A stretch of DNA of 64,000 nucleotides from Euzebyales bacterium (GTDB taxonomy: Bacteria > Actinomycetota > Nitriliruptoria > Euzebyales > JAHELV01). The stretch is taken from contig DASUUK010000074.1 in assembly GCA_036374135.1 (NCBI GenBank), positions 62,001 to 126,000 on the forward strand, written 5' to 3'. The position numbers were made by a program, and so were the translations under genes. Below, one piece after another: positions 51,727 to 56,010 of this stretch. Under the pieces are notes generated by a model. It was not told the origin of the DNA. It did no database searches and was given only the letters and a program-made list of their open reading frames with translations. Each line of letters starts with the position of its first letter. The first letter of the stretch is position 1.

Positions 51727-53244
51727 TCACAGCAGGAGCAGCTGCTGTGCCGCGTGCGCGCGCACGACGTCGTCGGTCCGGCCCGCCGATCCGCCACGCT
51801 CGCCCCGCGCGTCCCCCGCACCGGCGTCGCGCGTGGCGCGTGGATGTGGCCGACCGTACCGTCGCCAGGCCGCGTCACGGCGCGCGCGGACGAACGCACC
51901 GACCTCGTCCCGGTAGTTCGCGGCCGCGGTGCCGCTGCGGTACAGCGCCTCGTACCGGTCGACCAGCTCGGGCCGCGTGCGTCGCAGCCAGGGCATGAAC
52001 AGCTCCCGGACCCCGGTGCGCAGATGGAGGACGATCGGCGTGATGTGCGTCGCACCGGCCGCGGCTGCCGCATCGCAGATCTCCGCGAGCTGCTCGGCGT
52101 CGTCGTTGATGCCCGGCATGATCGGCGCCAGCATCACACCGGTCGGGACGCCGGCCGCGTTGAGCGCCGCGACCGCCTCCAGGCGCGCCCGCGGGTGCGG
52201 CGTGCCCGGCTCCGTCTCGCGCCACGCCGCCTCGTCCAGCATGCCGACGGTCAGCGCGGCCGTCACTTCCACCCGTTCCACCGCGGCAGCGAGCTGCGCG
52301 ATGTCGCGCGTGATCAGCGTTCCCTTCGTCAGGATCGACAGGGGCGTCGCCGTCTCGGCCAGGGCCATGATGATGCCGGGCATCAGACGGTACCGGCCCT
52401 CGCACCGCTGGTAGGGATCGGTGTTGGTACCCAGGGCGACCTGCTCACCACGCCAGCCGGCACGTGCCAGCTCGGACCGGAGCACGTCGACGACGTTGGT
52501 CTTGACGACGATCGTGCGCTCGAAGTCGATCCCCGGTGACAGGTTGAGATAGCGGTGGGTCGGGCGGGCGAAGCAGTTGTGGTGGACCACGCCCCCGGCC
52601 ACGAAGTCACCGGTGTCGGTCGTCATGTCGTACAGCTCGAGGTCTCCGCCGAGCGGCTCGACGCGCGCGACCCGCGTGGCCAGCTCGAGCGGGAGGCCGT
52701 CGCGGACGGCGCCGCGCGGACCTGTCAGCCAGTCGGCGACCACGAGCTGGGGACGCCAGTGCCCGCCGTGGGGTGAGGCCGCCACGTGCCGCCATCCCCG
52801 GTGGGTGAGCAGGCGGTGGTCGGCGCTCGTGACGAGTGCCGACCCGTCCGCGAGCCATACGCGGTGGGCGGCCCTGACCACCGACCAGTGGTCGCGCACG
52901 ACCGTCGGCACGAAGCGGCGGATCCGCCCCTCGCGGCGGGTGCCCCATAGACGGTCGCCGACCCGCAGGTCCCGTATCGGCGTGGTCGTGCCGTCGATCC
53001 GCAGGACGGGCGTGTCGCCCGCCACGCAGTACGTGCATGCGTGTGAGCAGCCCCGGTAGGGGTTGATGCTCCACTTGAACGGCATGCCGCGCACGGCGTT
53101 GAGAGCGGACCGTGCCTCGACCTCCAGGAACGTGATGCCCGCGAACTCGGGCGTGGTCACCCGCCGGGCGTCGCGGAGTGCCAGCGGCAGCTGCGTGTGC
53201 GTCCCGGTGTCCGGCCGCTGCAGATCCGCGAGTGTCCGCCTCAT
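51727..53244 (-). CDS. Radical SAM protein (Rv2578c/SplB-like) interrupted by a mini-intein
   Basis: A 505-residue precursor. The radical SAM cluster motif CxxxCxxC spans Cys66, Cys70 and Cys73, and Cys73 is also the first residue of an inserted intein (73-223), which ends ...VVHHN before Cys224. After splicing the motif is restored as CSHACTYC by Cys224. The mature part (354 residues) has the SPL-like radical SAM barrel (ALGTNTDPYQ, PLSILTKGTLITRD, MLAPIMPGIND). Family members are linked to DNA repair; the exact substrate is open. A perfect LexA box lies directly upstream, overlapping the likely promoter. Confidence 0.9.
   Translation of the reverse strand: MRRTLADLQRPDTGTHTQLPLALRDARRVTTPEFAGITFLEVEARSALNAVRGMPFKWSINPYRGCSHACTYCVAGDTPVLRIDGTTTPIRDLRVGDRLWGTRREGRIRRFVPTVVRDHWSVVRAAHRVWLADGSALVTSADHRLLTHRGWRHVAASPHGGHWRPQLVVADWLTGPRGAVRDGLPLELATRVARVEPLGGDLELYDMTTDTGDFVAGGVVHHNCFARPTHRYLNLSPGIDFERTIVVKTNVVDVLRSELARAGWRGEQVALGTNTDPYQRCEGRYRLMPGIIMALAETATPLSILTKGTLITRDIAQLAAAVERVEVTAALTVGMLDEAAWRETEPGTPHPRARLEAVAALNAAGVPTGVMLAPIMPGINDDAEQLAEICDAAAAAGATHITPIVLHLRTGVRELFMPWLRRTRPELVDRYEALYRSGTAAANYRDEVGAFVRARRDAAWRRYGRPHPRATRDAGAGDARGERGGSAGRTDDVVRAHAAQQLLLL
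52576..53028 (-). other. Mini-intein (151 residues) within the radical SAM gene
   Basis: Block A CVAGDTPVLRIDG, block B with ALVTSADHRLLTHRGW, and the C-terminal ELYDMTTDTGDFVAGGVVHHN, followed by Cys, are visible, so all splicing residues are present. No homing-endonuclease motif (LAGLIDADG) is found and the length is typical of a mini-intein. Confidence 0.9.
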
Positions 53245-53383: not shown

Positions 53384-53953
53384 ATGAGCGGCAACGGCGA
53401 CAGGGCGGGCTCGCCCACGGCGAGAGCGACTGTCGCCGTGCGCGTTCCGGCCGGGGCCGCCCATCCCGACGCGCTGTGGAGGCTGCTGTCGACACCGGAG
53501 CTGTGGCCGGCGTGGGCGCCGCACATCCGTCGTGCGGAGCCGGAGCTCCGCCCGGAGGGGGACCCCGGCGGCACCGGGCGCGGAGCCGGGTCCAGGGCCG
53601 ACGTCACCCAAGGTGGATCCGCGCTGCGCACCGGCGACCGGGTGCGCATCGACGGGCACGGGCCCGCCACGGTCACTGCGCTGATCACGCTGGTGGACCC
53701 ACCACGACGCTGGGACTTCCTCGTCCACCTCCCGCTGGGCCACCAGATGATCGCGACGCATGAACTGGTCGACGACGCTGCCGGCGTGCGCGTCCGGATG
53801 GCCGTTCACGGTCCGCTGCCTGCCTCCGTCGGCACCGTGCTGCTGCGGGCGTACCGACCGCTCGCCGATGTGGCCCTGCGCCGTCTGGTCGCGCTGACCA
53901 CGGATCCGGATGCACTGCCGCGGGCGACCGACACGGAGCGCACCGAGCGATGA
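53384..53953 (+). CDS. SRPBCC (polyketide cyclase/START-like) family protein
   Basis: A 189-residue protein with an SRPBCC lipid-binding-type fold ([69 protein letters not shown]). The ligand is unknown. ATG lies 6 bases after TAGCAT (53372-53377). It overlaps the next gene by ATGA and so is co-translated with the DUF255 protein. Confidence 0.8.
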
Positions 53954-56010
53954 ACCGCCTCGCAGACGCCGCGAGCCCGTACCTGCGTCAGCACGCGGAC
54001 AACCCCGTCGACTGGTACGAGTGGGGCGAGGAGGCCTTCGCCCGCGCCCGGGCCGAGGACCGGCCGGTCTTCCTGTCGGTCGGCTACTCGGCGTGCCACT
54101 GGTGCCACGTGATGGCGCACGAGTCCTTCGAGGACCCGCAGGTCGCCGGCATCCTCAACCGGACCTTCGTCTCGATCAAGGTCGACCGCGAGGAGCGGCC
54201 CGACATCGATGCGGTGTACATGAACGCCGTGCAGGCCCTCACCGGGCGCGGCGGCTGGCCGATGAGCGTGTTCCTGACGCCCGACGGCCGCCCGTTCTTC
54301 GGCGGCACCTACTGGCCGCGCGACGACCGGGGTGGCGTGCCGGGGTTCATTCGGGTGCTGACGTCCATCGCCGAGCTGTGGCGTGACCAGCGCGATCGTG
54401 TGGACGTCCACGGGCACGAGCTGAGCGAGCGGCTCCGTGCGGTGTCGGCGAGCCCTGCCGTCGCGGGCGGCGTGGAGGACGGAACGACCCGCGCTGCGGC
54501 GGAGGCGATCGTCGGGTCGTGGGACCGCCACGAGGGTGGGTTCGGACCCGCGCCGAAGTTCCCGCACGCGATGGTGCTCGACTTCCTGCTCGCACACGGG
54601 CAGCGAACGGGCCACGCCCCGTCGCTGGAGGCCGCGACGCACACGCTCGACGCCATGGCGCGCGGTGGCATCTACGACCACGTCGGCGGCGGGTTCGCCC
54701 GGTACGCCACCGACCGCCGGTGGCGCATCCCGCACTTCGAGAAGATGCTGTACGACAACGCGCTGCTGTTGCGGACCTACACCCACGCCGCGCAGGTCTC
54801 CGGCGACGCCCGCCATGGCCGCGTCGTCGAGGAGACCATCGGCTGGCTGCTCGACGACATGGCCCATCCGGCAGGGGGATTCGCGTGCGCGTTCGACGCG
54901 GACTCGGAGGGCCAGGAGGGCAAGTACTACGTCTGGAGCCACGACGCGTTCACCGCGGCGCTCGGGGAGGCCGGGGTCGACGCGGAGGCGTGGGCGGCAC
55001 GCTGGGGCGTGACGCCGCGGGGCAACATCAACGACCCGCACGGCCACATCCCCGATGGCACGTCCGTGATCCACGAGGCGCCCGGTGTCACCGCCGACGT
55101 CGACCCCGGCGACCGCCGGCAGGTCCTGGACCGGCTCCTCGCGGTGCGCCGTGACAGGGTCGCGCCCGCGCGTGACGACAAGGTGCTGGCCAGCTGGAAC
55201 GGACTCACGTTCGGTGCACTCGCGATGGCGGGTGCCGTGTTCGGCCGCCCAGAGTGGATCGCGGCGGCCGAACGGACGGCACGCTTCGTGACGTCGCGGA
55301 TGGTCGACGACGAGCGACGGTTGTGGCACCGGTGGACGCCCGACCACGGGGCGGGAATCGCCGGATTCGCCGAGGACACGACCTACGTGGCCGCGGCCAT
55401 GCTCGACCTGTACGAGGCGTCGCACGATCCGGGCTGGCTGGAATGGGCGCAGCGCCTGGCCGCCGACGCCGACGAGCGGTTCCGCGACGCCGATGGCACG
55501 TACTTCACGACACCGGTCGACGGCGAGGAACTGGTCGCCCGGCCCCGGGAGCTGCTCGACAACGCCACTCCGGCCGCCAGCAGCGTCATGGCCGACGTGC
55601 ACCTGCGCCTCGCGGGGCTCACCGGGGATCCGGCGCATCTGGACGCCGCGGACGACACCCTGCGGACGCTCGCCGGCGCCGCGACCCGGATGCCGCTGGC
55701 GTTCGGCGCGCTGCTCGGCGCGATGGAACGCCGCCTGGCGGGTTCGACCGAGGTCGCCGTGGTCGGCCCTCCGTCGTCACGGCGCGACGCGCTCGTCGCG
55801 GTGTACCGGCGGCGCTGGCACCCCGGCGCCGTGCTCGCCGTCGGTGAGCGAGGATCGTCATCTCCCGCTGTCCTCGCCCATCGGGACCTGCGCGACGGTG
55901 TGGCCACCGCGTACGTCTGCCACCACTTCGCCTGCGACCGGCCGGTGACCAGTCCGGACGCGCTGGATGCACAGCTCGAGCGCGCCGGAAGCGGCGACCC
56001 GACAGTCTGA
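53950..56010 (+). CDS. DUF255 thioredoxin-domain protein (YyaL-like)
   Basis: A 686-residue protein: N-terminal thioredoxin-like domain with CHWC ([48 protein letters not shown]), then an alpha/alpha-barrel glycoside-hydrolase-like region ([50 protein letters not shown]). The family is conserved but its function is not known. It begins by overlapping the SRPBCC gene. Confidence 0.9.

Follow-up and report, generated by a model that had tools for sequence, protein, structure and literature searches.

A mini-intein before the third cluster cysteine of an Rv2578c-like radical SAM protein

The interrupted gene and its host family

The window, the 64,000-nucleotide stretch of Euzebyales bacterium DNA that was analysed, encodes on its minus strand (51727-53244) a 505-aa precursor in which an Rv2578c-type radical SAM protein is interrupted by an intein. 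The reading frame begins MRRTLADL... at an ATG (53242-53244; other starts are possible). All parts of the precursor lie on this strand. The N-extein (53029-53244, residues 1-72) ends in RGC(66)SHAC(70)TY and is followed by a class 1 mini-intein of 151 aa without an endonuclease (52576-53028; CVAGDTP...VVHHN) and then by the C-extein, CFARPTHRYL..., which contains the radical SAM barrel (51727-52575, stop included). Read through the junctions, the precursor runs RGC66SHAC70TYC73, a further 150 intein residues and then C224FARPTHRYL. The unspliced protein has a complete CxxxCxxC motif in Cys66-xxx-Cys70-xx-Cys73, the last of these being intein Cys1 (codon 53026-53028) at the position of the third cluster cysteine; once the intein is removed, the motif reads as rebuilt with Cys224, the Cys+1 residue (codon 52573-52575). 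Cys66, Cys70 and Cys224 are invariant across 59 aligned homologues. An earlier, sequence-only reading had proposed an insert of exactly these coordinates, length and residue numbers, lying before the third cluster cysteine, with Cys1 holding the ligand position that Cys224 takes later, and each of these points is borne out. Close to the intein gene, on the opposite strand (53950-56007, plus), lies a gene for a DUF255 thioredoxin-like protein with a CHWC motif (PF03190, E 4.5e-78).

By far the best families for the precursor and for the extein are NCBIfam NF038136 and NF038135, respectively. The precursor matches NF038136 ('intein-containing Rv2578c family radical SAM protein') at 600.3 bits (E 4.5e-180), short of the curated cut-off of 700 bits, and the joined extein without the intein scores 411.8 against NF038135, under the cut-off of 430. 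The missed NF038136 cut-off is most likely due to the absence of the endonuclease; the window intein aligns to profile positions 76-176 and then from 300 on. Scores that fall below the cut-offs in what is nevertheless the best family point to a divergent member of the Rv2578c family or a close sister. Both the CxxxCxxC motif and the radical SAM barrel of that family are present, the exteins match Pfam Radical_SAM (PF04055, E 3.1e-10), and L073, a homologue without an intein, has a model that most closely resembles spore photoproduct lyase (4FHC, E 1.1e-8). That inteins are known in the host family had also been claimed, correctly. NF038136 shares its host family and insertion point with the window gene, which differs from the profile in lacking the endonuclease.

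The intein has the full set of class 1 residues, namely Cys1, block B His71, block F Asp134 and His150-Asn151, followed by Cys+1, and the five intein residues are invariant across 23 aligned inteins. Cys1 is its sole cysteine; related inteins have 0 to 7 extra cysteines, counted as possible further cluster ligands. AlphaFold2 (AF2) modelled the precursor with a mean pLDDT of 82.5, and the intein domain adopts a predicted Hint fold that matches intein crystal structures with E values down to 3e-10. These include the Ssp DnaB, Npu DnaB, Mtu RecA and Ssp DnaE inteins, as well as 3NZM, an intein redox-trapped with its own N-extein.

Distribution and probable decay of inteins at the Rv2578c site

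Homologues were collected by a class search (66 genomes), a phylum search (396 genomes) and a scan of GTDB contigs. At least 46 distinct intein alleles were found, every one before the third cysteine, with Cys1 and Cys+1, and terminating in HN wherever the C-terminal end was available. The intein is at this site by no chance occurrence, because at least 46 distinct alleles occupy the identical position. About 50 distinct empty alleles retain CxxxCxxC without an insert, and the extein junctions match exactly. Minis of 137-165 aa account for 10 of 42 inteins. The remainder measure 286-355 aa, most of them carry an I-DmoI-like LAGLIDADG endonuclease, and some seem to have been partly deleted; the endonuclease of full-length relatives matches I-DmoI with an E value of 7.4e-9.

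On the extein tree, intein presence and absence requires at least 10-16 changes and the mini form 4-5. Occupation is patchy even between sister species, and an occupied and an empty allele adjoin each other on the tree (L076 and L083). A homing element that passes through gain, decay and loss leaves such a pattern, and this patchiness argues against a regulatory role on which the family depends. Each of the four genomes from the window's genus carries the 151-aa mini.

The orthologue in genome G027, from the same genus (L067, L004), has SHC, not TYC, ahead of the junction, and its C-extein is split over two frames by a frameshift or an assembly error.

Within the genus, dN/dS is 0.11-0.42 for the intein and 0.08-0.38 for the exteins, as rough Nei-Gojobori values with synonymous sites near saturation. 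The intein is therefore under purifying selection, and it probably splices. Terminal decay, with an intein that no longer splices in a gene heading for loss, could account for the missing endonuclease and for the two-frame C-extein at L067 in G027. It is nonetheless highly unlikely, because the splicing residues are all intact, the window reading frame is open throughout and dN/dS lies well under 1 for intein and exteins alike.

We consider it likely that the window holds a class 1 cis-splicing mini-intein, descended from a full-length I-DmoI-like LAGLIDADG form at conserved third-cysteine codons, whose endonuclease was lost in the genus while the splicing domain was kept. The element would target the conserved codons round the third radical SAM cysteine (its putative target), where precise loss would be difficult and a Cys+1 nucleophile guaranteed; in the genus of the window the endonuclease would then have disappeared and the splicing domain been left behind. 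As a counterpoint, inteins without the endonuclease have been retained under purifying selection in several lineages, which could mean usefulness, not inertia. From known intein chemistry, we infer that the precursor would fold, that Cys1 would form a thioester with Tyr72, and that Cys224 would attack before Asn151 cyclises. The ligated enzyme, with Cys66-xxx-Cys70-xx-Cys, would then be able to bind a [4Fe-4S] cluster. Cluster loading is likely to come after standard four-step splicing, and the unspliced precursor is probably inactive.

Related inteins at the third cysteine of other families

When the Rv2578c intein profile was searched against the 396 phylum genomes, the only end-to-end matches outside the family were in DUF5131 and QueE. 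Counting also a protein on viral contigs, four radical SAM-type families (Rv2578c, DUF5131, QueE and the viral protein) have homologous inteins at the third cysteine, and the four inteins align end to end with E values of 1e-13 to 1e-61. The DUF5131 protein (PF07505, with a three-cysteine motif; L122:1501-2535, G258:C135, minus) has a Cys1 intein that reads GCDN/CLAP...ATHN/CYAM, slashes marking the splice junctions. The radical SAM-like viral protein (L168:1501-2538, plus; also L169) likewise has a Cys1 intein, VGCSNQCNY/CVAP...VAHN/CYLR; no family name for this host protein came from Pfam, NCBIfam or PHROGs.

The QueE case differs at the first residue. In this 7-carboxy-7-deazaguanine synthase (L157:998-1990, G155:C4:84297-85289, minus; TIGR03365 E 6.2e-69), the intein lies before the third CxxxCxxC cysteine, splitting CDYRCSW/CDSKF, and begins with serine (SVTCNTPI...ILSRN/CDSKF). 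The Rv2578c inteins are its homologues. Because an intein at the equivalent cysteine starts with Ser, completion of the ligand motif is no general requirement of the third-cysteine site. The Ser1 form is a single allele in which Arg replaces His before the final Asn, and it may be a weak splicer.

Although the window intein is itself a further example of a known intein type, the occupation of the third cluster cysteine across families is unexpected. The alignments may reflect one intein lineage that passes from the cluster-motif codons of one gene to the analogous codons of another, unrelated gene; alternatively, sites of this kind may have been selected repeatedly. The Cys1 and Ser1 forms make a natural comparison set for asking whether Cys1 in the ligand position alters splicing.

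Ligand register and possible control of splicing

The sequence-only reading took the register of Cys1 as its point of interest, and here the analysis departs from it. Residue 1 of every intein occupies the place of the +1 residue, so any Cys1 intein here would show this register, which carries no information by itself. A Cys1 intein with Cys+1 rebuilds the motif at whichever cysteine it interrupts; the insertion site and a Cys1 intein together make the register inevitable, with no additional coincidence, and it is no evidence for iron control of splicing. Cys1 was present in all 30 control inteins sampled from the class, which were the best TIGR01445 matches, a choice that favours Cys1, and it is therefore taken as the default first residue. 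Among the at least 46 alleles at the Rv2578c site none lacked Cys1, which is weak evidence, Cys1 being the default. Cysteine at -3 was found in 0 of the 30 controls and is kept by the empty alleles; Cys-3 therefore stems from the host motif.

The earlier reading had also suggested that the precursor could bind a cluster and that splicing would thereby be blocked or delayed. Such iron-sulfur sensing would place a cluster on Cys66, Cys70 and intein Cys1 and so block the first splicing step. The three thiols do stand in exact ligand register, and metal on a catalytic intein cysteine blocks splicing elsewhere, as zinc does in Mycobacterium smegmatis DnaBi1 (PMC7360933). However, that register is automatic at this site, the related QueE intein at the equivalent cysteine has Ser1, and Cys224, in the same intein active site, is an alternative ligand. 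AF2 gives low confidence to the precursor's cluster loop and to its two junctions (residues 69-71 and 223-229 below pLDDT 50), whereas the equivalent loop of the intein-less homologue (61-80) is well defined, at a pLDDT of about 90. The low loop confidence fits a precursor without a preformed cluster site, although AF2 confidence cannot decide cluster binding and the junction coincides with an alignment gap. In the literature searched, we found no precedent for cluster binding by a precursor or for iron-linked control of splicing, and no paper on Rv2578c inteins or on inteins at this radical SAM/4Fe-4S site. With the patchy presence of the intein added to these points, delay of splicing by a precursor-bound cluster is unsupported, and we regard iron-sulfur sensing as quite improbable. 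The broader proposal that the third-cysteine intein lineage serves several enzyme families as an iron-sulfur checkpoint, with a [4Fe-4S] or smaller cluster on two host cysteines and Cys1 pausing splicing, is very unlikely.

The claimed link between splicing and iron-sulfur or redox state fares differently in its two halves: iron control is speculative and weakened by the QueE Ser1, whereas redox control is plausible and has a precedent in MoaA, a radical SAM enzyme. According to PMC10663303 and PMC3922620, which describe the work of Callahan et al. 2011, splicing of the Pyrococcus abyssi MoaA intein is blocked under oxidation, when a disulfide joins Cys-3 of the N-extein to the catalytic Cys1. 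As described there, that intein, like the one in the window, interrupts an oxygen-sensitive oxidoreductase and pairs Cys-3 with a catalytic Cys1; it differs in belonging to another host family and to an archaeal hyperthermophile, and its register is known from reviews. Oxidation also blocks splicing of DnaBi1 (PMC6195587, PMC7360933), but, unlike the window intein, this intein is of class 3 and sits in a helicase P-loop, in a host without a metal site. The Mycobacterium tuberculosis SufB intein, which is sensitive to oxidative and nitrosative stress according to PMC8891592 and references there, shares with the window intein a host related to iron-sulfur clusters, although SufB is a cluster scaffold protein and not a radical SAM enzyme.

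The window precursor has the same pair of cysteines, Cys70 at -3 and Cys73 as Cys1. Because Cys-3 adjoins Cys1, as reported for MoaA, a Cys70-Cys73 disulfide redox trap is plausible by analogy: oxidation could join Cys70 to Cys1 and pause splicing. Such a trap would be a by-product of the site, which the cell may or may not use. A gate maintained by selection, in which the oxidized Cys70-Cys1 disulfide keeps an oxygen-sensitive enzyme inactive until conditions become reducing, is possible but doubtful. Cys-3 is invariant in all intein alleles at the site yet absent from every control, and the MoaA pair, as the reviews present it, occurs in an oxygen-sensitive oxidoreductase (PMC10663303, PMC3922620). 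However, the host cluster motif fixes Cys-3 in the empty alleles too, which makes its conservation uninformative about the intein, and the intein itself occurs patchily among close relatives. If splicing does answer to cluster or redox state, the intein would give an oxygen-sensitive enzyme a post-translational switch.

Other inteins were noticed during the searches. RecA of the source genome has two, after the P-loop SGK and after VMFG, both with Cys1 (L160, G000:C103:17500-21500). The same genome has a nucleotide-sugar epimerase/decarboxylase-like gene with an intein that starts with Ser1 and is followed by Thr+1 (IARIFN/SILADEQ...VMAHN/TYGP; L161, G000:C106:1200-5000). An NrdD-like anaerobic ribonucleotide reductase (L158, G308:C36) carries an intein that ends in SHN/CGGHS and is weakly related in its endonuclease half.
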